From positions 1 to 20,627 of the IMG/VR virus record IMGVR_UViG_3300030047_000141: a stretch of DNA of 20,627 bases; one strand, given 5' to 3'. The notes beneath the pieces were generated by a model that saw nothing but the letters and a program-made list of their open reading frames with translations, searched no databases and had not been told where the DNA came from. Shown one piece after another: positions 1,021 through 17,100 of this stretch (positions within the stretch are counted from its first letter, which is position 1; every line of letters begins with the position of its first letter). The DNA is from a virus. Both the position numbers and the translations under genes were made by a program.

Positions 1021-1601
1021 ACGGAAAAGCATACGCAAACAGGAAGCCGGCCGAAGAAAGGCCCGAGAGCGACAATTACCCAACCCCGATTCCGCTTATT
1101 CATCAACTTCTCGGTCGCGGAATACTGAGCGTTAGGACGCGCTATGACGACCCCGGATGCGGAGACGGGCAGTTAGTGAGAACGGTAAACGCAATGGGAT
1201 ACCATTGTACGGGTGATGATATTCGCATGACCGGTGTCGACTTTCTCACTGACAACAGAAAGCGCGAAGCGATTCTAACAAACGCGCCATTCTCTATTTA
1301 TGACGAATTCATACTTCATGCGAAGGAGGTGGCTCCGATTGTAATAAGTATCGGAAAAACAAATTTCCTCGGATCGCATTCAAGGACCACGAACGGACTA
1401 TGGAAAAACCTGAAGGCTGTCTATGTTTTTGATCGTCAGGTTGACTATCGCACTCCGCTCGGAAGCATGGAGCTATATGTAGGAAATCTGATTACCGGAT
1501 GGTTTGTTTGGGATCGTTCATGGCACAAGGACTATGCCATGATGCGAACAATTAATATCCAGAAGTACTGCACTCTCGGTGCATTTAAGGAGTCAGTATG
1601 A
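1017..1601 (+). CDS. DNA methyltransferase-like protein with altered motif IV
   Basis: The 194-residue protein resembles phage S-adenosylmethionine-dependent methyltransferase-like proteins. It has YPTP..LIHQLL (21-32), a motif I equivalent DPGCGDG (45-51) for SAM, a following GDD (66-68), GVDFL (73-77), and NAPF (89-92) where DNA amino-methyltransferases carry (D/N)PP(F/Y/W). After this come DEFILHAKE (96-104), an R-x-x-x-Y segment (DRQVDYRT, 139-146) and a C-terminal GWFVWDRSW (161-169), all typical of this phage family. The first catalytic-loop proline is alanine, so activity may be altered or lost. The start overlaps the preceding stop as ATGA. Probable roles are modification of phage DNA to evade restriction, or a non-catalytic DNA/SAM-binding role. 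Confidence 0.7.
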   Translation: MNGKAYANRKPAEERPESDNYPTPIPLIHQLLGRGILSVRTRYDDPGCGDGQLVRTVNAMGYHCTGDDIRMTGVDFLTDNRKREAILTNAPFSIYDEFILHAKEVAPIVISIGKTNFLGSHSRTTNGLWKNLKAVYVFDRQVDYRTPLGSMELYVGNLITGWFVWDRSWHKDYAMMRTINIQKYCTLGAFKESV

Positions 1602-1726
1602 TCGCATTATTCATTCCTGTATTCGTTCTTTTCTGCATCGGTGCTGCAGGATACTTTTCCTACTATCTCTGCCGCGAGTTTTTCAAATGGATCGTTTCCG
1701 TATTCAAAAGCGATGGTAGTGATTGA
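1598..1726 (+). CDS. 42-residue single-pass membrane peptide
   Basis: ATG at 1598 overlaps the methyltransferase-like stop (ATGA), and AAGGAG at 1587-1592 is 5 bases upstream, so translation is well supported despite the small size. The product begins MIALFIPVFVLFCIGAAGYF, a hydrophobic stretch covering about residues 2-25, followed by a short basic/aromatic tail ending KSDGSD. One membrane helix with N-out, C-in topology is expected. Small membrane peptides near phage lysozyme genes may be holins, antiholins or lysis regulators. Here the lysozyme-like gene is two genes upstream, so this is only a suggestion. Its stop codon TGA lies inside the -35 box of the promoter for the next gene. Confidence 0.7.
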   Translation: MIALFIPVFVLFCIGAAGYFSYYLCREFFKWIVSVFKSDGSD

Positions 1727-1751
1727 CATCGGGAATTTCAGGGTGTATTAT
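1723..1751 (+). promoter_or_regulatory. sigma70-type promoter for a leaderless transcript
   Basis: A perfect -35 TTGACA (1723-1728) is followed after exactly 17 bases by TATTAT (1746-1751, 5 of 6 to TATAAT). Six bases separate the -10 from the A of ATG at 1758, so the predicted transcription start is that A itself. The TGA of the preceding gene (1724-1726) is embedded in the -35. No ribosome binding site would be on such an RNA. Confidence 0.7.
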
Positions 1752-1757
1752 CCATGA

Positions 1758-2039
1758 ATGATAAGGTTGACAACATACCAAAGAAAGGTAATGGATTACA
1801 TCCTGTATCTTCATTCTCATGAGGAATATATAACCTTCACGAAAATAGGCAGGCATTTTGGCATGTCGCTACAGGCCGCGAAGTTTTGCTGCCAAGACCT
1901 CATGATGAAGGGATACATAGAACTCAAGCCGTACGAGGTAGCAAAGAAAGGACATATAGGCAGGTGGGAGTTCATCTTAAAAGAAAAATCACTCGCCGTT
2001 GATTTTATGAATAAGGTTTTGTCGGAGGATTCAAAATGA
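1758..2039 (+). CDS. winged-helix DNA-binding protein
   Basis: The 93-residue product opens with LTTYQRKVMDYI (4-15), resembling the first helix of the LexA/MarR-like winged helix ('LTxxQxxVLxxI'). A helix-turn-helix follows (ITFTKIGRHFGMSLQAAKFC, 25-44), then a wing-entry motif (LMMKGYIEL, 48-56) and a two-strand wing. It lacks the LexA peptidase domain, so it is probably a small regulator. The start at 1758 is chosen because helix 1 needs it; the in-frame ATG at 1791 would remove that helix. There is no ribosome binding site, and the strong promoter just upstream places +1 on this ATG, implying a leaderless mRNA. It may regulate late promoters, perhaps the second promoter at 4134; that is inference. 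Confidence 0.7.
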   Translation: MIRLTTYQRKVMDYILYLHSHEEYITFTKIGRHFGMSLQAAKFCCQDLMMKGYIELKPYEVAKKGHIGRWEFILKEKSLAVDFMNKVLSEDSK

Positions 2040-2533
2040 TTCTTGATTTAAATGTAGCAGAAAAAGACCGATTGCTCCGACTCGCGAGTCTGGGTCTCCA
2101 GAGGTGTGAAAAACCACTTGCCAGCGATTCAAGATTGCTTAAAAAGATATCTAGGTCTATGACCAGGATAAATCCGCGTTCTGCAAAGAATAAGGGCGCA
2201 TCTTGGCAGAAAGAAATGTGCGAAATGATTTCTCGCATAACTGGGATACCGTTCGATCAATCGAGCGATTCTTGCGATATTCACTCACGCGAAATGGGTC
2301 TATCCGGAGCGGACATAATCGTTCGCGGAAAGGCCCGTATGCTTTTCCCGTTCGATCCGGAGTGCAAGAACTGCAATTCACTCTCTCTCCCGGAGTGGGT
2401 TCGTCAAGCGAAGGCGAATGCAAAATCAGGAAACTGGATCTTGTTTGTAAAGTCGCCGAAACTTGAAGAAAATATTGCAATCTTGAGCGTAACTCAATTC
2501 GAGCGCATCGCGGCGACGGTCGCAGAAATATAA
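2036..2533 (+). CDS. PD-(D/E)XK nuclease-like protein
   Basis: The 165-residue protein starts at an ATGA overlap with a strong GGAGG (2024-2028) 7 bases upstream. Residues 46-140 resemble a phage nuclease-like family: NPRSAKNKGASWQKEM (46-61) supplies the first helix with E60, SGADII (90-95) gives the acidic D93, and ECKN (109-112) gives the E-x-K pair of a PD-(D/E)XK active site. LSLPEWVRQAKAN (116-128) and WILFVKS (134-140) complete the core helix and strand. The likely job is cutting branched or double-stranded DNA, for example debranching DNA before packaging as Holliday-junction resolvases do, or use as a homing/restriction-like nuclease. Its place just upstream of the packaging genes fits a maturation role. 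Substrate not determinable. Confidence 0.65.
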   Translation: MILDLNVAEKDRLLRLASLGLQRCEKPLASDSRLLKKISRSMTRINPRSAKNKGASWQKEMCEMISRITGIPFDQSSDSCDIHSREMGLSGADIIVRGKARMLFPFDPECKNCNSLSLPEWVRQAKANAKSGNWILFVKSPKLEENIAILSVTQFERIAATVAEI

Positions 2534-2543
2534 AGGAGTCATT

Positions 2544-2780
2544 ATGGTATCAAATGCTATTGTCGGGAAAAAGGTATGGTTTGTCAGGATGTCCACTGAC
2601 TCGATCGTTTCTGGTACTGTGATTGGAATAGGCCCCGCAACTGATGGGCGCGTTGTTTATATAATCAGGCCGACGTTCGGGAAGAAGAACACCAGAAGGC
2701 TCAGTGAGTTCGTCTGGCCATCTTCAAGAGAGGCTCGTGATTTTTATTCTACCTGGAAGACGCAGGCCATTCCAGAATGA
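2544..2780 (+). CDS. small hypothetical protein, beta-rich
   Basis: The ATG at 2544 has AAAGGAG about 5-6 bases upstream. The 78-residue product alternates short hydrophobic strands and glycines (IVGKKVWFVRMSTDSIVSG, VIGIGPATDGRVVYIIRPTFG), which suggests a small SH3-like or OB-like barrel, followed by a basic/tryptophan-rich C-terminal segment. No signal peptide or membrane helix is visible. I do not recognise the family. Its stop overlaps the next start as ATGA, so it is co-translated with the following unknown gene. Confidence 0.65.
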   Translation: MVSNAIVGKKVWFVRMSTDSIVSGTVIGIGPATDGRVVYIIRPTFGKKNTRRLSEFVWPSSREARDFYSTWKTQAIPE

Positions 2781-3196
2781 TAAGCAGAGAACTCTTAATT
2801 ATCGGCGGGGCTGGAGAGATCGTTTCGCTTGATGGCCAAACGGAAGAAATATGGTCGCTTAATGCTTGTCCAGTGCCGTTTTCGGATCGAGTATATGAAT
2901 TCCACGAATCGAAAAGGAAGAGTCCGGATTTATACTTTTGGAGGAATATCCCGAAGGACAAGATTCTATCTCTCAACCTTCCGCTCGGAAATTCTATCTG
3001 CATAATGCTTTGCAATGCGATAGTAGAATGCCGATTTGATAGCATTCAGGTGCTTGCCTCTCCGCTTATCGTTGGTCCTGAATATACCAGAGAGCGACCA
3101 GCACTCGCCTGCTGTGTTTGGTACGCGAATAATATAGCAAAAATCCCGACCTTTTGGGCCGGAGGAATAGATTTCAACAAGGTGTATGAACTATGA
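2777..3196 (+). CDS. phage protein of unknown function with EIWSLN...RVYEFH motif
   Basis: The 139-residue protein begins with a Rossmann-like first strand and glycine loop, LLIIGGAGEI (6-15), followed by EEIWSLNACP (23-32) and DRVYEFHES (37-45). This arrangement ('IxIxGxA...EIWGLN...DRxFExH') recurs in a widespread family of phage proteins of unknown function. I recall the pattern but cannot search for it. Middle and C-terminal parts contain further strands (SICIMLCNAIVE, IQVLASPLIVGP) and the segment ALACCVWYANN. No ribosome binding site is clear; the ATGA overlap suggests coupling to the preceding gene. Nucleotide or nucleotide-sugar binding is plausible from the first loop but not shown. 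Confidence 0.6.
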   Translation: MISRELLIIGGAGEIVSLDGQTEEIWSLNACPVPFSDRVYEFHESKRKSPDLYFWRNIPKDKILSLNLPLGNSICIMLCNAIVECRFDSIQVLASPLIVGPEYTRERPALACCVWYANNIAKIPTFWAGGIDFNKVYEL

Positions 3197-4137
3197 CATT
3201 AAACCCAGGACTGAAGAAATTTATAGACATCGCCGGAGTTGCCGTCGCGCTCATTGCTGACTTAACCATAATTCCGATCTGTATGTTTACCATAGCGCCT
3301 GACGCGCTGACCAAGACGGCGTTTATCATGATCGGGGTTGTGATTGTCCTATTTGTGTTCAGGTCTTGGTCAACCGGATGGGTTGTGTTGTGGCTCGTAT
3401 TCGCTTCGCTTGTATTCTTTTTTGATTATTCTTTCGCTCTTGCAACGATGAAAAACAAAGACGCATTGGTTGCTGCTGAAAAGAATATAGAGCTTCTTGT
3501 TAAAAACGACGAAACAATAAAAAGCCTTAATATTGATATTGCCTCGCAGAAAGAAACGGTAAAGTCGTATGTTCTCGATTACCAACGGCCGCACGTCAGG
3601 GCAACCCTCGACCAGATATTCTTTAACCAGCAGGCGGCGCAAGCAAAGGTTGACGAATATGAAAAAAAGAGAGATGCACGAAAAAGTGAAATATCAGGCA
3701 CTGTTGCATCAAAAGTGAAAATGTCATCAGACGATGTTTTTGAAGCAATTCCTCAGGCGATAAGTGATAGGCGGTATATGCAACTTATTGTATTTTTCAT
3801 ACTTTTTGTAGGTCTTCAGGCGATAACGGTCACAAGTATAGAGCCGGACGAAAAGAAAAATAAACGCAAGTCGGTAGAAACTCAAATAAAAGAAGTAATA
3901 AAAGAGGTTCCGGTTGAGGTCGTCAAAGAGGTAATAAAGGAGATCGATCGTCCTATTCCTGAATTTATAGAGAACAAGGACGATCTTGTGGCTGTTACAA
4001 ATTGGAAGGACCTGTGGCGTAAAAACGCAACATCAAGGAAAAGCCAGTCGGCCCTAGATATGATTGATACGATAGATCGCATTCTTGATGGTCGTAAAAA
4101 ATATATTACCGAACTTAACAACAAGAACAATACTTGA
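3193..4137 (+). CDS. multi-pass membrane protein with coiled coils
   Basis: The 314-residue protein has an N-terminal cluster of about three membrane helices (residues 11-34, 42-57, 62-84), a charged helical region likely to be coiled coil (about 88-170), a fourth membrane helix (196-214), and a C-terminal charged region. The latter includes a repetitive KEVIKEVPVEVVKEVIKE segment (233-250) and another helix. With four helices both coiled domains would lie on the same side, most likely the cytoplasm given their lysine-rich flanks. The start overlaps the previous stop (ATGA), with AAGGTG at 3179-3184 as a weak ribosome binding site. I do not recognise a family. Position just before the terminase operon is unusual for a membrane protein of this size. 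Superinfection exclusion or a membrane-associated assembly role are only guesses. Its TGA lies inside the next promoter's -35. Confidence 0.7.
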   Translation: MTLNPGLKKFIDIAGVAVALIADLTIIPICMFTIAPDALTKTAFIMIGVVIVLFVFRSWSTGWVVLWLVFASLVFFFDYSFALATMKNKDALVAAEKNIELLVKNDETIKSLNIDIASQKETVKSYVLDYQRPHVRATLDQIFFNQQAAQAKVDEYEKKRDARKSEISGTVASKVKMSSDDVFEAIPQAISDRRYMQLIVFFILFVGLQAITVTSIEPDEKKNKRKSVETQIKEVIKEVPVEVVKEVIKEIDRPIPEFIENKDDLVAVTNWKDLWRKNATSRKSQSALDMIDTIDRILDGRKKYITELNNKNNT

Positions 4138-4161
4138 CAATTTGTCATTCTTTCTGATAAT
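4134..4161 (+). promoter_or_regulatory. sigma70-type promoter of the packaging operon, leaderless
   Basis: A perfect -35 TTGACA (4134-4139) is followed by GATAAT (4156-4161, 5 of 6 to consensus) at 16-base spacing; ATAATA at 17 is the alternative. Six bases separate it from the ATG at 4168, so the predicted +1 is that A. The TGA of the preceding gene (4135-4137) sits inside the -35, exactly as at 1723. Confidence 0.7.
4135..4147 (+). promoter_or_regulatory. 13-bp palindrome overlapping the -35 (candidate operator)
   Basis: TGACAA-T-TTGTCA is a perfect inverted repeat centred on 4141 that covers most of the -35 box and the first bases of the spacer. A repressor bound here would block RNA polymerase. 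The winged-helix protein at 1758 is the only clear regulator candidate in the window. The upstream promoter at 1723 lacks a matching repeat. Confidence 0.45.
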
Positions 4162-4167
4162 AGGTGT

Positions 4168-4530
4168 ATGGCAAACCCACCAGCACTCGGAAAGAAAGAA
4201 ACTCAATACCTCACTACTGCAATATATAAAGCCGGAGACCTCGTCGAGCGATTCGTCAACGAAGAAGGCGTCCCTGTCGAAATGGCCCGTCGTCAAATTC
4301 TCGAAGAGCTTATCTGGCGAGAGGCTATGCCGCTCAATAAAGAAACCGGAATGTTCGAACTTGGTTCATGGAAGGCTATTGATATAATCAGAGAGAGTGA
4401 GCCGAAAAACGAAGACGGCGGAAGCAATGCGCTCGAAACCCTACTGCTAAAGCTGGCGGAAAAAGTAGAATCATCAAAACAAAACAAAAACCTCATAGCG
4501 CCGAACGACGGAGAAACGCATGACGATTGA
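4168..4530 (+). CDS. putative terminase small subunit
   Basis: This 120-residue, mostly helical protein lies directly before the large terminase and overlaps it by 11 bases, the usual place for the small subunit that recognises viral DNA and loads the motor. Residues 8-55 (GKKETQYLTTAIYKAGDLVE... through RRQILEELIWREAMPL) could form the helical DNA-binding part. A second helix around 86-103 (ALETLLLKLAEKVESSK) may drive oligomerisation, and the tail is acidic and polar. No family motif is diagnostic, so the call rests on position and size. The only purine-rich stretch before the ATG (AGGTG) is 2 bases away, too close to work. With the promoter geometry this predicts a leaderless message. Confidence 0.55.
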   Translation: MANPPALGKKETQYLTTAIYKAGDLVERFVNEEGVPVEMARRQILEELIWREAMPLNKETGMFELGSWKAIDIIRESEPKNEDGGSNALETLLLKLAEKVESSKQNKNLIAPNDGETHDD

Positions 4531-6010
4531 AGACCTTCGTGAGTATTACTTTGACAAGGCGTATGAATTCGTTTGCGACATTGTGTTCATGGGGACCGAA
4601 ATAACTGAAAGGAATGGACCCTCCCAGCAACAAAAACTCGTGCTTGACGCCTGCTCGTTGTCTGCAAGAGACAGGAAGCCGGTTTCGTGTAAATCTGCTC
4701 ACGGAACAGGGAAAACTTGCCTCGCAGCTTGGGTTGTGTACTGGTTTCTTTTTACCCATCCATACAGTAAAGTTGGCGCAACCGCTCCGACCGAAAGACA
4801 GTTGAAAAATGGGTTATGGGGAGAATTGAGTAAATGGATTCAGCGATCCGATGCACTCAAAAGTTTTTTTGTATGGAAGTCAGAGAAGATTGAAGTAAAA
4901 GGGAAGGGAATATCGTGGTCTGCAGAACTCCGGACATCATACAGGCCTGAAAACCTTGCAGGTCTTCACGGAGAAAATGGATGCCTCATAATTGTTGACG
5001 AAGCTTCGGGAATTCTTGACGATGCTATATGGGATACACTATCAGGCGCAATGTCTGATATAGGTTCATTTATGCTCATGATTGGAAACCCAACACAGGT
5101 TCGCGGTAACTTCCATCGATCTTTTACCAGCAAGAACAGCAACGCTCGATGTTTGACGCTTTCAGCATTGACAAAAGGGTATCGCGGAGATCCTGGGTTC
5201 CCGAAAGAGATCGCCGACAAATACGGAGTAGATTCGGACCAGTATCGCGTTCGTGTACTCGGTGAATTCCCGATCGATTCGCCAACCGCCTTCATAAAAC
5301 TCAGGGCACTTCAGGATTGTTATGGCAGGCCTTACGAGCAGGCATTCTTCCCGATAATCGCCGTAGACCCAGCCGATGCTGGAAATGACGCAACAGAAAT
5401 TGTAGCCGGCAACGGATATCGAGTATTCTACAAGAGGACAATCGAAGGATCAACCGACGGTGCAATAAACGGACAGGCGGTGCTCATGATGATCCACAAG
5501 ATGCGCGACAACTGCAAAGATATGGGCTTTCATCCAGACGTTACGATAAAAGTTGTATTCGACCGTACTGGAATTGGTGCAGGAATGCAAACATATCTCC
5601 AAGGGTTCCAGGTTTCTGAGAATTTCAAACTCATTCCCGTACACGGTGCAGAGTCCGGAAACGCCGAATACGAAGACATGTCCGACCTTCTTTGGGGTAA
5701 CATGAAAGCGCTTCTCTATCTATTATCGATTCCTCACTACAATGAAGGACCGAAGGCCGAAGGAGAAGGATTTGACGTTGCGTATTTTGAAGAACTCGAA
5801 GACCAGATATGCGGAAGAAATTACGAAGTGCTTGAATCGAACAACAAGATAAAACTCGAATCAAAGGCAGCGTTGAAACGCCGAGGCAAGGGATCTCCAA
5901 ACAAAGGCGATGCACTTTCCTTGTACCTTTTCCCGTTCCTTCGCAACGGCATTGACAAGCGTTCTAATTCTGGTCAAAATTATTCAGCTCGGGTAAATCT
6001 TGGCGATTAA
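4520..6010 (+). CDS. terL: terminase large subunit
   Basis: The 496-residue motor packages DNA into the prohead by ATP hydrolysis and cuts it with a C-terminal nuclease. In the ATPase half: Walker A SAHGTGKT (59-66, K65/T66), an aromatic/basic ATAPTERQ segment (87-94), Walker B LIIVDEAS (156-163, D160 with catalytic E161), and the coupling motif IGNPTQ (188-193). In the nuclease half the RNase H-like acidic residues are D283 (AVDPADAGND, 281-290), D348 (VVFDRTGIGAG, 345-355) and D464 (NKGDALSLYL, 461-470). All key residues are present and the length is normal. GGAGAAACGC precedes the ATG. The gene overlaps the putative small subunit and is followed after 9 bases by the portal. Confidence 0.95.
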   Translation: MTIEDLREYYFDKAYEFVCDIVFMGTEITERNGPSQQQKLVLDACSLSARDRKPVSCKSAHGTGKTCLAAWVVYWFLFTHPYSKVGATAPTERQLKNGLWGELSKWIQRSDALKSFFVWKSEKIEVKGKGISWSAELRTSYRPENLAGLHGENGCLIIVDEASGILDDAIWDTLSGAMSDIGSFMLMIGNPTQVRGNFHRSFTSKNSNARCLTLSALTKGYRGDPGFPKEIADKYGVDSDQYRVRVLGEFPIDSPTAFIKLRALQDCYGRPYEQAFFPIIAVDPADAGNDATEIVAGNGYRVFYKRTIEGSTDGAINGQAVLMMIHKMRDNCKDMGFHPDVTIKVVFDRTGIGAGMQTYLQGFQVSENFKLIPVHGAESGNAEYEDMSDLLWGNMKALLYLLSIPHYNEGPKAEGEGFDVAYFEELEDQICGRNYEVLESNNKIKLESKAALKRRGKGSPNKGDALSLYLFPFLRNGIDKRSNSGQNYSARVNLGD

Positions 6011-6019
6011 GGGGTTTTT

Positions 6020-7489
6020 ATGAATATAATTCCAGCTTTTTTGAGGGGATCACATAAAACAAGCGGGATGACTCAAAATAATCGCTGGCTTGTTTCTGAT
6101 ATAGATTTAACAATGGTCGAACGAGTCGATGCAAAACTTGCTCGGGATATCTGGCATAACACTGCAAAATCCTACAAGCTTTCAGCTTCCGTAGTGATCT
6201 GCGCGATTAAAGCCGTTATTGATTATGTTGGTTCTCCGACTGTTAAGCTTTCTGGTCCGGTGAAGCAGCAGAAGATTATCCAGAAGCATATACGAGCCCA
6301 AAGGAAAACGGCTCACCGGAAAATGTTTTCTGAGGGAAACGAGTACATCTGGGCAAATTATAATTCCGAAAAAGGAGACCTTGAGTATATTTATTTCGGT
6401 ATGGATGATGTTGAAACTCCATATCTCGACATCGACACAAAAGAACTTAAGGCTATTTCGTTCAAACAAAAGATTCAATTCTTTGACCAGTACGGAAATA
6501 GCGCCTCGACAACTCGCCGCATTTATTTTGATGAAAATAAAATTGTTACTGAATATATTAACTCTGTGCCTCCAGGAAAGAAATCAAAGTCGACATATAC
6601 GCATAATTACGGAATGCTTCCGATAATTTGGGGTTCATACGGGAAGGGCGATGATGAAATTCAGGGACACGGAATGATTGAGCCGGTCGAGCCGTACCTC
6701 GCAAACATGCATACCATCATGGAGAATCGCATAATCGAAGACAAGCGTTCGTCTCGAAAAAAATACCTCATTAAAGGCGATGACCCCGATACGTGGCTTG
6801 AAAAAACATGCAGGATCAACGGAGTAACCGCAGGCGGCGGGGTTCCGCTCGAAGATCTAGATATATTTTTCAATACGGTTTCAACTTCGGGAAAAGAAGA
6901 AGGTGTTTCGTATCTTAATCCTGGACAGACCGCCACCGACTCTATTCAGATACTAAAATTACTTTTCATGAATCTTATCGAAACACTCCGTATTCCCGAG
7001 TTTGTGTTCCCGCCGAAACTTGGCGCATCGTTCGCGTCTGCTCAAATTCAAGTACCAACATTCATTCAGCTTATCCAGGAAGACCAAGAAAGCCTTTCTT
7101 CGTTCTGGGAGAAGTGGGTTGAAATTTCAGCAATGGTTCTTTCCAGGGCGACGAATTCGCAGCCAGTTTTCTTGGCTGGAGATGTAACCTGGAAGCGTAT
7201 CGACCTCGACTCTGCTGAACTTCGAGCGAAAATCGTCAATTACATGATGTCGTCTATGAAGATTGCAAAAGACGAAGGCTTGATGAATGACAAAGAAATC
7301 CGCGCCTATATCGATTCGTATATGAACCAACTCCAGGATTATGACGAATGGGAGAAAGGCCGTGAAAAACTACTGAAAGACCTTGAAGGCGTAAAAAAAG
7401 CCTTCGGCGCTTCGGCGAAATCGGCAACGGACAATAAACAAGAAGGAGATTTATTAATTGAGAACGAAAACAGAAATAAAGATCAGTAG
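6020..7489 (+). CDS. portal protein
   Basis: The 489-residue protein follows the large terminase directly, at the normal size for siphovirus portals, which form the dodecameric ring at one head vertex through which DNA enters. Characteristic parts: an N-terminal helical region with AKSYKLSASVVICAIKAVID (49-68), a clip/stem region around residues 215-250 (GMIEPVEPYLANMHTIMENR then basic RSSRKKYL), and the crown side with RIPEFVFPPKLGASFASAQ (about 323-341) followed by long helices ('FIQLIQEDQESLSSFWEKW'). The tail is lysine/glutamate rich. AAGGGG precedes the ATG by about 5 bases. The end overlaps the next gene by 32 bases. Assignment by position plus portal-like sequence pattern. Confidence 0.88.
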   Translation: MNIIPAFLRGSHKTSGMTQNNRWLVSDIDLTMVERVDAKLARDIWHNTAKSYKLSASVVICAIKAVIDYVGSPTVKLSGPVKQQKIIQKHIRAQRKTAHRKMFSEGNEYIWANYNSEKGDLEYIYFGMDDVETPYLDIDTKELKAISFKQKIQFFDQYGNSASTTRRIYFDENKIVTEYINSVPPGKKSKSTYTHNYGMLPIIWGSYGKGDDEIQGHGMIEPVEPYLANMHTIMENRIIEDKRSSRKKYLIKGDDPDTWLEKTCRINGVTAGGGVPLEDLDIFFNTVSTSGKEEGVSYLNPGQTATDSIQILKLLFMNLIETLRIPEFVFPPKLGASFASAQIQVPTFIQLIQEDQESLSSFWEKWVEISAMVLSRATNSQPVFLAGDVTWKRIDLDSAELRAKIVNYMMSSMKIAKDEGLMNDKEIRAYIDSYMNQLQDYDEWEKGREKLLKDLEGVKKAFGASAKSATDNKQEGDLLIENENRNKDQ

Positions 7490-7865
7490 GATGATGTTTG
7501 CGATTCATCTGGCGTCACTTTTTGCTATGTGCTTACTCGCCGGCGGATCTTTCGTGTTGTTCGTAGTATCTTATTATAACTTTGGAATTATTATTTCGTA
7601 TCTTTCGGTTATTTCGTGCTGCATTTTTTTCGTGCTGATTATGAATGAATTCAAACGGTACAAGGATCGCGCCATGCTTTTTCCAAGCCTGTACACTGCA
7701 ATAAAGTATTCAGATTACGAGTCTTTTATTGACGTTGTAAAGGATGCTCGGTCATCTTTTTACGGAAGATTGGCGGTATTTTTTATATTCAGTTCACTGA
7801 AAAAGAAAGAAGAATACCGAACAATGAAGAAAAAGATACGGCTGTCGTTACTTGACAAGAAGTGA
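7458..7865 (+). CDS. two-helix membrane protein between portal and head protease
   Basis: The TTG at 7458 has AAGGAG (7443-7448) 9 bases upstream and is preferred over the ATGs at 7491/7494, which have only a weak purine tract. The 135-residue product has two membrane helices (about 12-37 and 41-63), a basic loop (EFKRYKDRAM), an amphipathic or weakly hydrophobic segment YGRLAVFFIFSSL (101-113), and a strongly basic C-terminus (KKKEEYRTMKKKIRLSLLDKK). It overlaps the portal gene by 32 bases, so it is translated from the same mRNA. No family is recognised. A membrane protein here is unusual; a holin-like or membrane-linked assembly role is possible but unproven. Its last codons contain the -35 of the next promoter. 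Confidence 0.65.
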   Translation: MRTKTEIKISRMMFAIHLASLFAMCLLAGGSFVLFVVSYYNFGIIISYLSVISCCIFFVLIMNEFKRYKDRAMLFPSLYTAIKYSDYESFIDVVKDARSSFYGRLAVFFIFSSLKKKEEYRTMKKKIRLSLLDKK

Positions 7866-7880
7866 AGTTGATGTTTTAAC
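7852..7880 (+). promoter_or_regulatory. possible promoter of the head-shell genes
   Basis: TTGACA (7852-7857) inside the end of the membrane-protein gene is followed after 17 bases by TTTAAC (7875-7880, 4 of 6), preceded by TG-T as in an extended -10. Predicted start is about 7887, at the ribosome binding site of the protease-scaffold gene. Many coding regions contain TTGACA, so this is weaker than the other two promoters. Confidence 0.4.
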
Positions 7881-7897
7881 TGAACGAGGAGATGCAT

Positions 7898-9022
7898 ATG
7901 AAGGATAAAAATGTTCGGTGCGGGATACTCACGGCTCAATATGCGGAAGCTCCGAAGACAGAAATCGGCTCAGATGTAATAAACAGCGTTCCGCTTTCTG
8001 CATCGAACAAAAAAGCATTCGACATTCTTTCGTCAGGAGACGGTTCGCCGTTCGAGTTCGTTCAGGAAGTAAAATTCGGCGACAAGTATCCGGCAACCGA
8101 CGGGACCATATTCGACAAATCCTATGCGGATTCCTATTCAGAGAAGGCGAATAGTGTTCCGATACCCGGATCTGCCTACGGACATACGGCGCTTCATGTT
8201 GAAAAAGAACGCGTGCGCAATCATGTATATGTAACTGCGGCGAAAGTGGTATCAGAAGATACCATGCTTTTACGACATTATGTATCAAACAAGATGGACA
8301 AGAACGACTACGACTCGCTTGTTTCGGAGATAAAAGCAGGGCTTATTTCTACCTCCTTGTTCGGGCTCTACAAATACAAGACTGCGGCAGGCAAAGACGG
8401 AACGCAAGTCGTTCATGCTATAAAGTCTGTCGGAAAAGAACGGAATGATCTGGTTGAATGGGACCAGACAGGAATGGCTTCAAAGATGATCGCGACTTCA
8501 CAGAAGGACGTGATCGATGAATATAATGAAGGAGATACACCAATGGACCTCAATTACGATGAACTTATTGCCGCACTGAAAGATACGATGACGAAAAATC
8601 GTACCGATCACGTTGCGGTAATGAAGGATCTCGGGCTGAACATTGAAGTGTTGACCGCCGCGCATAAAGCCGACCTCGCCGTTCTTGGCAAGGTCCGCCA
8701 GATTGCTGCCGGTGGTGATGTCGAACAGATTGTTACTGACGCCGTTGCGGCCCAGGGCAATTCGTTTGCTACGCTTCGTGATGCGGCAATCGAGAAAGAA
8801 TTCGGCCATGATCCCGAACTCAAGAAATCTGTTTCCGGGCTTTTCGGAATCAAGGTTGGATCACAGAAAGATATCGCCGGCGAGATCGATCGCCTGAAGG
8901 GTCTTGACGCAATCAAGATCATTGCTGCGAAGAACGCAGACGGACGCCAGCATGTTGCTGGCGGCGGAACCACCAAAGGAAAGGGCATCCAGATCGGAAG
9001 CAATTTCAAGGAGAGTAAATAA
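7898..9022 (+). CDS. capsid maturation protease-scaffold polyprotein
   Basis: AGGAG at 7887-7891 abuts an ATG at 7892 but is 6 bases from the ATG at 7898, so 7898 is preferred (374 residues). The N-terminal half looks like a prohead protease: SVPIPGSAYGHTALH (86-100) offers the family's histidine (H96 or H100), VYVTAAKVVSE (110-120) resembles its 'GxV' strand, and IKAGLISTSLFGLYKYK (145-161) its serine strand (S151/S153). ERNDLVEWDQTGM (181-193) is a typical end to such domains. From residue 216 the protein becomes helical and charged (MDLNYDELIAALKDTM onward), as expected for scaffold. The order protease-scaffold, decoration, capsid equals the lambda C/Nu3-D-E order. The exact protease clan and catalytic triad are not certain. 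Confidence 0.75.
   Translation: MKDKNVRCGILTAQYAEAPKTEIGSDVINSVPLSASNKKAFDILSSGDGSPFEFVQEVKFGDKYPATDGTIFDKSYADSYSEKANSVPIPGSAYGHTALHVEKERVRNHVYVTAAKVVSEDTMLLRHYVSNKMDKNDYDSLVSEIKAGLISTSLFGLYKYKTAAGKDGTQVVHAIKSVGKERNDLVEWDQTGMASKMIATSQKDVIDEYNEGDTPMDLNYDELIAALKDTMTKNRTDHVAVMKDLGLNIEVLTAAHKADLAVLGKVRQIAAGGDVEQIVTDAVAAQGNSFATLRDAAIEKEFGHDPELKKSVSGLFGIKVGSQKDIAGEIDRLKGLDAIKIIAAKNADGRQHVAGGGTTKGKGIQIGSNFKESK
8529..8534 (+). promoter_or_regulatory. internal ribosome binding site for free scaffold
   Basis: AAGGAG lies 8 bases before an in-frame ATG at 8543 inside the protease-scaffold gene, as good a site as those of real gene starts in this window. Confidence 0.7.
8543..9022 (+). CDS. nested scaffolding protein (internal in-frame start)
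   Basis: The in-frame ATG at 8543 with AAGGAG 8 bases upstream should give a separate 159-residue protein identical to residues 216-374 of the larger product. It begins MDLNYDELIAALKDTMTKN and is dominated by helices (AAHKADLAVLGKVRQIAAGG, ATLRDAAIEKEFGHDPELKK, DIAGEIDRLKGLDAIKIIAA), with a glycine/lysine-rich basic C-terminus (GGGTTKGKGIQIGSNFKESK) suited to binding capsid protein. This copies the lambda arrangement in which scaffold Nu3 is made from inside protease gene C: many scaffold copies and few protease-tethered ones. The start falls exactly at the predicted domain border, which supports it. Confidence 0.7.
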   Translation: MDLNYDELIAALKDTMTKNRTDHVAVMKDLGLNIEVLTAAHKADLAVLGKVRQIAAGGDVEQIVTDAVAAQGNSFATLRDAAIEKEFGHDPELKKSVSGLFGIKVGSQKDIAGEIDRLKGLDAIKIIAAKNADGRQHVAGGGTTKGKGIQIGSNFKESK

Positions 9023-9515: not shown

Positions 9516-10646
9516 ATGAAATATACAGACAAACACGGCATCGCCATTACCGCTCAGGGAGAACGAAACGGTAATGTCGAGGAAGAAATCCGGATTGTTG
9601 ACTCAATCCAGGAGATCAACGGGTCCCGCCAGATGGCGGCAAAATCCGGCGATCTTGACTTCGTTGGCGACCAGATTCGCCTTTCCGGACAGGCTGAAAC
9701 CCTTCCCGGTGATATTTACGACAACCTGTCGACGCTCGAGACTCGTTGGCGTCCATTTGTCATCGACTTCACTCGCACCCTTGCCGGACGTGAGAAGGTC
9801 TATCAGGCGATCTATGAGACTATTTCGTCTCCCGATCTCGATGAAACAATGCCGATTCGCGACTTTACCAACAATCAGTCAATGGCTTATTGCGAGTGGC
9901 ACGACGGCGAATCGGTGTACACCACGAATTTCAAAGACGAAGTCCTGAAGGACACAGTTTCTCTGAAGTTCTTCGCCGGTGCGATCCAGAAGACACTCCG
10001 CAACAAGCTTTTCAACAAGCTGTATCTCCAGCAGACCGAAGCTCGAGCGCAGGCTCAGGGTTACATCGATCTTTGCAACCATCTGTACATGCACCCGATC
10101 ATCGCTGCTTCGTACACCGGAAAGCATGTTGAAGTTTCCATGCTCAAGAAACGATCAACGAACTCTTGGTGGGAGAACAACTGGCAGATCATGAAGCTCG
10201 CGAAGAATATGTACTTCACCGCGAAGGATTCATACGACCAGTATCTCAGCCTGCCGATACTCGTCATGAACAAGAAGACGTACATGACTTCGTTCCAGGA
10301 TACGCTCGACGCGATCAACATCGCCGACAGCAAACGGTACGACTCGATGCGCAACTGGTGGGGCGGAATCGTCATCTATGATGGCGCTACTGTGACCATC
10401 AGCGGCAGGAAGGTTTCATATCCCGGCCCTGCTGACGGTCGCGTTATCATGGTTTCTCCGAAGGACGGGTTCAAGGAACTTATCAAGCAGCCGCTCACGA
10501 TGGTAACGAAGCCTGGAACCGAACTCGAACTCGAGCGCGATATCTGGTGGGATTGCCGTGGAATTATCAGTCAGCCGACTGATTACTGCTACGACTTCAA
10601 CCTCGTCGCGGTTGACGATACGTCAGACGGCCTCAAGTCAACGTAA
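9516..10646 (+). CDS. major capsid protein
   Basis: The 376-residue protein is at the expected place and size for a HK97-fold shell protein, after protease/scaffold and decoration genes and before the connectors. The N-terminal 40-60 residues are acidic and charged (ERNGNVEEEIRIVDSIQEI). The middle has the mixed helix/strand pattern of the P domain, with an aromatic segment NSWWENNWQIMKLAKNMYF (216-234) and DALDAIN-like helices. The C-terminal strands include GRVIMVSPKDGFKEL and ELELERDIWWDCRGII. Codon choice is strongly biased: I count only 1 ATA among 28 isoleucine codons, against 12 of 19 in the distal tail gene. AAGGA/GGTGG precede the ATG. An intrinsic terminator follows 16 bases after the stop. 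Fold assignment is by context and pattern. Confidence 0.85.
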   Translation: MKYTDKHGIAITAQGERNGNVEEEIRIVDSIQEINGSRQMAAKSGDLDFVGDQIRLSGQAETLPGDIYDNLSTLETRWRPFVIDFTRTLAGREKVYQAIYETISSPDLDETMPIRDFTNNQSMAYCEWHDGESVYTTNFKDEVLKDTVSLKFFAGAIQKTLRNKLFNKLYLQQTEARAQAQGYIDLCNHLYMHPIIAASYTGKHVEVSMLKKRSTNSWWENNWQIMKLAKNMYFTAKDSYDQYLSLPILVMNKKTYMTSFQDTLDAINIADSKRYDSMRNWWGGIVIYDGATVTISGRKVSYPGPADGRVIMVSPKDGFKELIKQPLTMVTKPGTELELERDIWWDCRGIISQPTDYCYDFNLVAVDDTSDGLKST

Positions 10647-10662: not shown

Positions 10663-10690
10663 AGCCGGAGCACTCGCTCCGGCTTTTCTT
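10663..10690 (+). terminator. intrinsic terminator after the major capsid gene
   Basis: A perfect 9-bp GC-rich stem AGCCGGAGC/GCTCCGGCT with a 4-base ACTC loop (10663-10684) is followed by TTTCTT. The next gene's ribosome binding site begins 2 bases later. No promoter is evident before the next gene, so it probably works as a partial terminator that lowers expression of the connector and tail genes relative to capsid. Confidence 0.8.
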
Positions 10691-11491: not shown

Positions 11492-11930
11492 GGTTTCAAA
11501 AAATACTGTTTTCTCCGGAATGGATACCCTCGGGTATAGTTTGGTTGAATCCGTAAAAGAAGCTATGTCGGCAACGACGATAGAAACGGCGTCTGAAATA
11601 AAATCCAGACAACGCTCGAATGAATTCTGGGACAATCAGTCAGGAAATGCTATTGACTCAATAGCTGGAGAAGTTGATGATTCATCAAGCCTGATATCAG
11701 GGGCCGTAGGGTTTGAGAATGGAAGACCGAACGAAAAAGATGCTCCAGACTACTACAGTGGTCGCGACCATGAGTATGCAAAATACATAGCCGACCGCGC
11801 TCAACTCAGTTTCGTCGGGTCCATACAGGCAGCTTTGGTAAGAAACTGGAATAGCGCAATCAGAAACGTCGGAAGCAGCATTGACATACATTCAAAGAAA
11901 AGAGCGCATTATACGAAAGGAGAATCTTGA
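11481..11930 (+). CDS. HK97 gp10-like neck/tail-completion candidate
   Basis: The 149-residue product follows the pattern of HK97 gp10-type proteins: an N-terminal helix (TLGYSLVESVKEAMSATTIE), a 'SGNAIDSIAGEVDD' segment in place of the usual 'TGxLxxSI', a strand SSLISGAVGFENG (69-81), then a tyrosine-containing EYAKYIADRAQLS (98-110) like 'YAxYVExGT', and a long C-terminal helix. These proteins sit at the head-tail junction. The gene overlaps the previous one by 11 bases, with CGGAG upstream of the ATG, and its TGA overlaps the next start region. Confidence 0.55.
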   Translation: MPVKVSKNTVFSGMDTLGYSLVESVKEAMSATTIETASEIKSRQRSNEFWDNQSGNAIDSIAGEVDDSSSLISGAVGFENGRPNEKDAPDYYSGRDHEYAKYIADRAQLSFVGSIQAALVRNWNSAIRNVGSSIDIHSKKRAHYTKGES

Positions 11931-14191: not shown

Positions 14192-17100
14192 ATGGGTCTT
14201 CTTGGTGATTGGATAGCGCAGATACTTGTTGATACATCGAAAATCGGACCGTCTCTTTCTTCAGCGAAGAGCGAATGGTCTGATTATTATTCATACATTC
14301 AAAAGCGCGACGAAGAAACAACAAAATATGTAAAAAAATCTCTCGTTGATATCGGAAAAGCCGATACGACCTCCAGACAAGAAGCGCTGGATTCCTATAA
14401 AAATCTCACGACTGAAGAAAAGAAACTCGTCGATACGCGGGTAAAATCATATAACACAGCATCGATAGCAATCGACCAAAACAAACGAAAGCTCGAAGAT
14501 CTCAGACTGCAGGTACTGAAATACGCATCAATCGCAATATCGGTGCCGATAACATTCCTGTTCGACAAAGGACTGAAAGAATACCTCGAATTCACACAGC
14601 AGATGCAAAACATAAAAGCAGTCGTTGGCGCAACGAGCGTTGAATTACAAATGCTTGCAAATACCGCGGTTTCAATGTCTGAAAAGTTTTCTTCTTCTCC
14701 GATCGGCATTGCGAAAGCCATGTTCGATCTCGGACAGGCTGGACTCGACGCAAACGAAATATATAAACAGATCGGGCCGGTAATGACGCTCGCCGCAGCG
14801 GGAATGAAGGATGTTTCATTTACGGCAGAAATGGTTGTTACGACGTTGAAATCATTTCAACTCTCAAGCGAGTCGGCGTCAACGGTTGCGGACATATTCG
14901 CTTCGTCAAACGCCAAGTCTGTTTCGTCACTCGATAAGTTGTCCGCGTCTTTGAAATATACCGCAGGGCTTTGGTCATCGATGGGATGGAGTCTTGAAGA
15001 ATTGGTTGGTACGCTCGATACGCTCTATGATACCGGTGTTCGTGGCGAGAAAGCAGGACGATTGCTTGCTTCTGCAATAAACGGACTTCAGCGTCCGTCG
15101 AGAAGCGCGTCAACCGCGATTGAAAATCTTCTCGGATACACGTCGGCTCTCGATCCGGCATTCAATAACATTGGGCAGATAATCGGGAAGCTTGCGGCGG
15201 CGCACGCAACCACGCAGGATGTCGTCAAGATATTTGGAAAAGAGTCTGCTGAAGTGATTAATAGGCTTGTTCAAAACTATGGTGTGCTCGACGACAACGT
15301 GAAAGAGGTTACTGGAAACATGGGAGAATCTGCACGTCAGGCAGCAATCCAGATGGATAACCTGAACGGAAAGATGAATATAATGAAGAACACCTTCTCG
15401 AACGTAACAAAGTCGTTCGCGTCGACCCTTGACCCCGCGCTCAAAGGTGTAGTCGTTTCAATAACTTCTGTTATGCAGGTTTTTGAAAAAGCACCAACGC
15501 CAATCAAGGCCTTGCTCGTATCGCTTCTCGGTGTTGCTGCGGTAATGCTGCCTCTTTCTGCTGGGATACTTTCGGTTAAATCATCACTCATTGCATTGTC
15601 AGCACAGCTAGCCGTCGCCGGAACAACTATTGCAGCCACACTCGCTCCGGTTCTTGTTGTAGCCGCTGCTGTTTCCGGATTGTCGGCAATATACATAATG
15701 GTAAAAAAGAACCAGCAGGACTGGATTGATACCGTCGACTCCGGAGTTGCGTCGTTGTCAAAGCAAGGAAAGTCAATCGACGCAATGGTTGATGACCTTG
15801 GAAGGCTTGGCGACTCGATAGAAGACCAAAAAAAATCAAAAGCAATTCTTGAAGAACTCGCCGCAGTATTCCCGAGATTGAGAGAACAGTTAAATAAAAA
15901 CGCAGGTGATACCGCGTCAGCCATGAGAATTCTTAGACAGGAATATGCAAATCTTAAACAAATAGAAGCAGATAGGGATAAATCAACACTTGGGTCCGGA
16001 ACGTCATACCTTGAAAGACAACTCGCAGAACAGAAGCTTTCTGTAGATCAGTTGAGTTCAAAATATGCAGATCTTACGTCGCAAGTTTCTATGTTTAAGA
16101 TGGTCCAGGGTAGCATAAAAGGCACTGAATTCTCTGGCCTAAAATCAATGCAGCAGTTTTCTGATTATGTTTCTGATTCGCAAGGAAATTTAGGAAAAAT
16201 AATGGCTCTTCTTCCCGAGGGAGATCCTATACTTCGCGATTGGGTTATGCAACTCGCATATACGAACGGACAATTAAACTCTGCGAAACTTTCTCTAAAA
16301 GGAATGCAGAATTTTGCAAAAAGCCTCGGATCTGATTCTGCAAATGCAAAACTCAAGATTTCGACTAAGCTCGTCGAACAAATTGCATCTCTCACCGAAG
16401 ACATGACGAATAAGGTGTGGTCGCTTAAATATGACCTGCAACTTGCAAACAAGCAAGCAACTGCAACTGATGTTGCGAATGCTATCGGAGAAGTTTTCGA
16501 TGGAGCGATAAGAAACCTTACGCTCGACAACAAAATAGACATGAAGTCGCTCGGACTTATGAGCGACGACGGATCGTTTACTCAATACTATAAAGACCTT
16601 ATCGCGCAGATGGGAAAAGACACGACCGAAGGAATGGCAAAAAACGGCGCAAACTGGGCCACCGTTATGATGAACACCTTCGACGCAAACGTAAAGGACA
16701 ACACGTCATTCGACACGTTAAAGGAAATGCTCGACGGGTTGTCGAAATATCAGGCGATGAAGATTGACATCGGAATAGAGACCGATCCGAATAAAATATC
16801 AGACCTCAATAAAAATCTCGCAGAAATGGATAAAACATTCGGTGGCGTTGCTGCAACGTCAGAAAAAGGACTTACCGCAAACCAGATTGCCATCAGAAAA
16901 ATAGTACAAGCATACCTCGCATGGGGCGTCTCTATGTCTGATAACTTCGGGAAGCAAACGAAAGGCGCAAAAGAAACGCTCGATTGGTGGGAACAGATTA
17001 TCCAGAAAACCGTCGACGCCGAGAGACAGTTAAAGGGATACACCGACGCATCTGATTCATCGAAAAACATAACATCTCTCAATGAAAAAGTAAGAACCCT

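Follow-up and report, generated by a model that had tools for sequence, protein, structure and literature searches.

Predicted leaderless mRNAs for a regulator gene and the packaging block of a viral contig

When the gap between two phage genes has room for little besides a promoter, where does the mRNA begin? The question is raised by a 20.6-kb viral contig, the IMG/VR virus record IMGVR_UViG_3300030047_000141, which we analyzed over its whole length (hereafter, the window). An earlier note had pointed to two places where the same promoter layout runs right up to a start codon: site A, before a gene encoding a winged helix-turn-helix (wHTH) protein, and site B, before a putative small terminase gene (terS) at the head of the packaging block. 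The explanation that we favor, and regard as probable, is that promoters A and B yield leaderless wHTH and packaging-block mRNAs, with the RNA starting on the A of the ATG, give or take one base. The layout looks real and selected rather than a product of chance. For the packaging block, the predicted leaderless expression is, in addition, well supported by the comparison with other phages.

Two promoters that run up to start codons

The layout at positions 1723 and 4134 is exactly as had been described, both by direct reading and in a scan: a TTGACA box holding the stop codon of the preceding open reading frame (ORF), a spacer of 17 (site A) or 16 bases (site B), a -10 box with five of the six consensus bases, six further bases, and the ATG (Table 1). 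The six bases are CCATGA after TATTAT at site A and AGGTGT after GATAAT at site B. With intergenic gaps of 31 and 30 bases, respectively, each of the two gaps is economically a promoter. Both sites fit the sigma70 type (TTGACA, spacer of 16-18, TATAAT-like -10), and the scan found no other site in the window that matches 11 of the 12 consensus positions. They are not copies of one another: the spacers differ and the DNA outside the boxes is dissimilar, which rules out the simple duplication of one promoter. With sigma70 polymerase, transcription typically begins about 7 bases past the -10 box, a position that is here the A of the ATG. At site A, the predicted first base of the transcript could be A1757 or A1758.

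Comparison with dinucleotide shuffles of the window indicates that the layout is not random: the pattern TTGACA-(16-18)-NATNAT-(4-8)-ATG occurs twice, with 0.02 occurrences expected. Our scripts used a crude gene caller and a promoter matrix drawn from general knowledge. With the weighted promoter score that they give, sites A and B rank first and third in the window, the second-ranked site being intragenic. On average, 0.075 sites per shuffle reach the score of site A, which tops nearly all shuffles.

Most genes of the window have a Shine-Dalgarno (SD) sequence with a pairing energy between -6.6 and -9.8 kcal/mol. The genes at 2777, 3193 and 11075 have weak ones, and they can be translationally coupled since they overlap the preceding stop codon. 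Of the genes examined in the window, wHTH and terS are those that combine a weak SD with the lack of such an overlap. In front of terS, AGGTG lies just 1 nucleotide (nt) from the ATG, and the pairing at usable spacing amounts to -1.8 kcal/mol. The best pairing of wHTH reaches -4.1 kcal/mol, with AGGGTG at a spacing of 10 nt. Hence, the claim of the earlier note that neither gene has a usable ribosome binding site is nearly right: it stands for terS, whereas wHTH retains a weak motif.

The start codons themselves, ATG 1758 and ATG 4168, are supported by homology. TerS begins with MAN in the window and in the related contig L004, and the two proteins align from residue 1. The wHTH protein also aligns from its first residue, both with its counterpart in L004 and with the Pfam family LexA_DNA_bind. 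No later in-frame start with an SD was found near the N terminus of wHTH or TerS, nor near that of two proteins from related contigs described below (TerS of G003 and a methylase-like protein of G001). A third TTGACA of the window, at 7852, is followed by a gap whose -10 box is poor, and for the gene listed from 7892 a start at ATG 7898, after GAGGAG, is more likely (window 7852-7898).

The layout in distant and close relatives

The same layout was noticed in control loci, before the gene preceding the large terminase gene (terL) in distant phages whose TerL is ~24-37% identical to that of the window. We gathered this second group from the gene preceding TerL (alignment A13). It comprises 22 loci of the viral scan (IMG/VR contigs L066-L087, e.g., L066:2460-2510 and L082:2465-2510), of which 21 have the promoter region and 19 are distinct after merging two identical pairs. 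In 18 of the 19 distinct contigs, the -10 box ends 5-8 bases before the putative terS start: 6 bases in twelve of them, 7 in two, 8 in one, and 5 in three (for L081 and L084, the distance is measured to an in-frame ATG slightly 5' of the start matched by homology). The -35 boxes are TTGACA, TTGACT or TTGACG, and SD pairing ranges from 0 to about -3 kcal/mol, with the exception of L078/L080, the one remaining distinct contig. Among the nine members with identical geometry, pairwise identity is 91% in the -35 box, 34% in the spacer and 35% in the 40 nt upstream. The conservation of the box next to such dissimilar DNA argues that, in this group, the position is kept while the sequence drifts. We rely on this divergence rather than on a binomial figure, which treats kin members as independent.

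Other traits concern the start site and, in the second group, its genomic context. Of the 15 sites with a distance of six bases, 12 have a T before the start (T-1/A+1), as many initiators do. In the long contigs of the second group (G004-G010), only the gene preceding TerL has the layout at a plausible start. The other strong promoters of these contigs are mostly followed by leaders of some 20-46 bases with an SD, and a strong SD is present in 72-87% of the genes encoding at least 100 amino acids (aa). The protein encoded before TerL gave only weak fold matches, some of them to phBC6A51-type and annotated TerS proteins and none with E <= 0.001. Among deposited phages, no relatives of the window or second-group TerS were found.

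Closer to the window, two contigs represent the same virus from other samples: L002 is 100% identical over 9.9 kb and identical at sites A and B, and L003 is 99.9% identical over 8.4 kb and identical at site B, the sole site that it covers. The lineage of the window further includes L004 (57-kb contig G001), L011 and L012 (contig G003), with TerL identities of 64%, 63% and 42-43%. In L012, TTGACAATTTG...TACTAT is followed by 7 bases and the terS ATG, without an SD. A promoter precedes the packaging block in all four members of the lineage, in its leaderless form in two of them.

The overlap between stop codon and -35 box, which the earlier note had made part of the layout, does recur, but not everywhere. 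In G001, the TGA of the -35 box is also the stop codon of long open frames at 11734(-), 13353(-) and 27318(-), with good -10 boxes, and again after the gene ending at 14298, with a weak one. In the second group, it ends an open frame longer than 50 codons in 6 of 19 contigs. An exact TTGACA lies over the stop codon of 8 of 163 genes in the window lineage, against 6 of 763 in other phage loci (Fisher p = 0.0009, an approximate value given that two of the eight were added by hand). Yet, ordinary SD leaders follow two of these G001 promoters, at 11734 and 13353, as well as the weak one behind the gene ending at 14298, about 17 bases past the -10 box. Because the overlap is not universal and some of the overlapping promoters have such leaders, it is best described, from these comparisons, as a recurrent habit of compact packing, neither required for leaderless starts nor specific to them.

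Other observations concern the promoters of contig G001 (IMGVR_UViG_3300012931_000003). The strong one at 27318(-), TTGACA-17-TAGTAT, has a TGA that ends an 88-codon HTH-like frame, and no called gene start lies close behind it. At 14855-14890 (-), TTGACA-17-TAAACT-6-ATG stands, without an SD, before a 185-aa methylase-like gene (MKILVACEESQAV...), which is another leaderless candidate. Many -35 boxes of this contig extend to TTGACAAT(A/T), which may reflect a preference, of host or phage, for more than the hexamer. We did not count two other cases. The divergent promoter of L004, at G001 37616(-), appears leaderless by naive ORF calling, and an SD-led start lies further in (TAAGGA before ATG). 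The divergent membrane gene of L011 has an in-frame SD-led start at codon 18 (CGGAGA).

Mechanism and competing explanations

If promoters A and B are recognized through host sigma70/sigmaA, the polymerase would begin at the A of the start codon or one base from it. This would give a wHTH mRNA from 1758 and a packaging-block mRNA (terS-terL-portal and onwards) from 4168, both leaderless. A ribosome, typically in its 70S form, would bind the 5'-terminal AUG of the first cistron directly, while the later cistrons would use their own SDs or coupling. TerS would then likely be translated efficiently only from the mRNA made at its own promoter, with little translation from read-through mRNA. The late timing implied by the earlier note, which proposed a control mode for phage late genes, does not follow from the sequence, and a sigma70-type promoter can be read by the host polymerase at any time. 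Taken one step further, leaderless terS might act as an interlock between promoter and translation, whereby TerS is made only from own-promoter mRNA, packaging is switched by promoter firing together with the state of ribosomes and initiation factors in the host cell, and selection keeps the distance from -10 box to ATG near 6. We put forward this extension tentatively and consider it rather doubtful.

Several observations weigh against leaderless expression. The terS promoters of the two closest relatives, TTGACG-17-TATCAT in L004 and TTGACC-17-TATAAA in L011, are followed by a leader with an SD (AAAGGA and AGGAG, respectively). The wHTH homolog of L004 lies elsewhere in the genome, is SD-led and has no promoter. 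For wHTH, leaderless expression is thus proposed from one sequence, and the weak AGGGTG still stands before its ATG. In the second group, one distinct contig (L078/L080) has a leader with GAAGGAGA as SD, and database phages with a TerL ~30-36% identical have no strong promoter at a distance of 5-8 bases. The earlier note had looked to related phages for conservation of the stop/-35 overlap and of the six-base distance, and had named leaders and ribosome binding sites at these genes as evidence to the contrary. Such leaders do occur in the closest relatives, although not in the window itself. Since L004 and L011 have a leader and an SD before terS and the wHTH gene of L004 is SD-led, the leaderless arrangement appears to be gained and lost, rather than conserved at the exact sites. 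Hence, leaderless initiation at the terminase block draws its support from the distant group and from L012, and not from the closest relatives.

An alternative that we judge unlikely, although it fares best among those considered, accepts the promoters and places the start a few bases off, or has translation proceed on read-through mRNA by coupling or re-initiation over the ~30-base gap. The products would be short-leader or SD-less leadered mRNAs. The genes in the left part of the window are all co-directional and tightly packed, which makes read-through likely, and SD-like bases are present at both sites (AGGGTG at site A, AGGTG at site B). Moreover, the choice of start by sigma70 polymerase varies by 1-2 nt, and some second-group members have distances of 5, 7 or 8 bases. 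However, coupling would not constrain the distance between -10 box and ATG, and this distance stays near 6 in the second group despite the diverged DNA. In addition, several members of that group, like L012, lack a long open frame that stops in register at the promoter.

Two other explanations fare worse. In many phages, pac or cos sites lie in or beside terS, and the boxes before terS could be such a packaging recognition site instead of a promoter. This is very improbable: the boxes fit the sigma70 consensus with its 16-18 spacing, the same boxes stand before unrelated SD-led genes in the same genomes, and site A is not near the terminase. Least credible of all is chance, i.e., inactive promoter-like hexamers in AT-rich gaps before ATGs, for although promoter-like sites are not enriched in the window (25 vs 28.7 expected) and the score of site B alone is unexceptional (1.3 sites expected per shuffle), the joint layout is far in excess of its expectation and the promoter recurs before the gene preceding TerL throughout the window lineage, its position being held in nearly all of the second group.

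Surrounding genes and known leaderless systems

Table 1. Features around sites A and B (positions in the window)
Feature	Position	Strand	Remarks
42-aa ORF	1598-1726	+	TGA stop (1724-1726) within promoter A -35; ATGA overlap with preceding methyltransferase-like gene
Promoter A -35	1723-1728	+	TTGACA; holds stop codon of 42-aa ORF
Promoter A -10	1746-1751	+	TATTAT (5/6), spacer 17; first T 12 bases before ATG 1758
wHTH	1758-2039	+	93 aa, winged-helix, weakly similar to LexA DNA-binding domain; predicted start codon at transcript 5' end
Membrane-type protein	3193-4137	+	314 aa; TGA stop within promoter B -35
Promoter B -35	4134-4139	+	TTGACA; contains stop TGA 4135-4137 of ORF 3193-4137
Promoter B -10	4156-4161	+	GATAAT (5/6), spacer 16; first base 12 bases before ATG 4168
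TerS (putative small terminase)	4168-4530	+	120 aa, directly 5' of TerL; predicted leaderless start A4168
TerL (large terminase)	4520-6010	+	11-base overlap with terS; own SD CGGAGA at spacing 5; PHROG match to terminase large subunit
Portal protein	6020-7489	+	SD-led

The label TerS is putative and stems from position and from similarity to the same gene in L004 and L011. It is a short gene directly before TerL, with the same placement in L004, L011 and L012. It has no Pfam or PHROG match, and its structure model is poor (pLDDT, the predicted local distance difference test, of 48.7), too weak to decide the fold. The match of wHTH to LexA_DNA_bind scores 17.4 bits, under the cut-off of 23.7, and its 93 aa leave no room for the LexA peptidase domain. 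Searches of Pfam and PHROG gave no convincing match for the 42-aa ORF. Ahead of terS, the membrane-type gene runs in the same direction as terS in the window and in the opposite, divergent one in L004 (4474-5385, minus strand) and L011 (2265-3449, minus strand), a local flip beside a retained terS promoter. Downstream of TerL lie portal, capsid and tail genes, including one for a 1773-aa tape measure protein. Just past the capsid-like gene 9516-10646, a GC-rich hairpin, AGCCGGAGCACTCGCTCCGGCT (10663-10684), is followed by T-rich DNA and could act as a terminator or attenuator among the structural genes. Two genome-contig scans for a host or a prophage copy gave no relative.

The best-known leaderless mRNAs of phages are those of a few lysogeny regulators. 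If our explanation is true, these phages would offer a natural comparative system to ask why a phage drops the leader at one gene, the head of the packaging block, in two groups that otherwise depend on SDs, and the distance between -10 box and AUG could be studied as a selected trait. It would also matter for annotation, since gene finders based on SDs may misplace such starts. A recurrent leaderless small-terminase gene was not reported in the open-access literature that we searched, a body that leaves out most subscription journals.

The cI and cro mRNAs of PY54 were found to be leaderless by RACE (rapid amplification of cDNA ends), and the same is stated for the lambda prophage repressor (PMC4488713). 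There too, for lambda cI (from PRM) as for PY54 cI and cro, the promoter abuts the gene and the mRNA begins at the AUG. However, those genes are regulators of the lysogeny switch, whereas here they are a LexA-like wHTH gene and a terminase block, with predicted 5' ends. Leaderless promoters have also been predicted in Cluster O mycobacteriophages, where one of them (PL2) belongs to a leftward gene of the structural operon (PMC4351075), and leaderless mRNAs are common in mycobacteria (PMC4633059). Unlike these phages of mycobacterial hosts, the present ones rely on strong SDs elsewhere in their genomes and have the gene before TerL as their recurrent case.

The geometry resembles that of the TA-led leaderless genes of Actinobacteria and Deinococcus-Thermus, in which TANNNT precedes the start codon by ~12 bp (Zheng et al. 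2011, PMC3160421; PMC12340547). The same 12 bases separate the first base of the -10 box from the start at both window sites and in 12 of the 19 second-group promoters, although GATAAT is not strictly TANNNT. These genes are further characterized by the lack of an SD, which is also what we find, clearly for TerS and with a weak motif remaining for wHTH. In contrast to TA-led genes, the promoters described here have a full, near-perfect -35 box and are a rare exception within genomes that use SDs. In sum, leaderless phage mRNAs are already known, and the recurrent leaderless terS predicted here would add a case to them, not a new mechanism.

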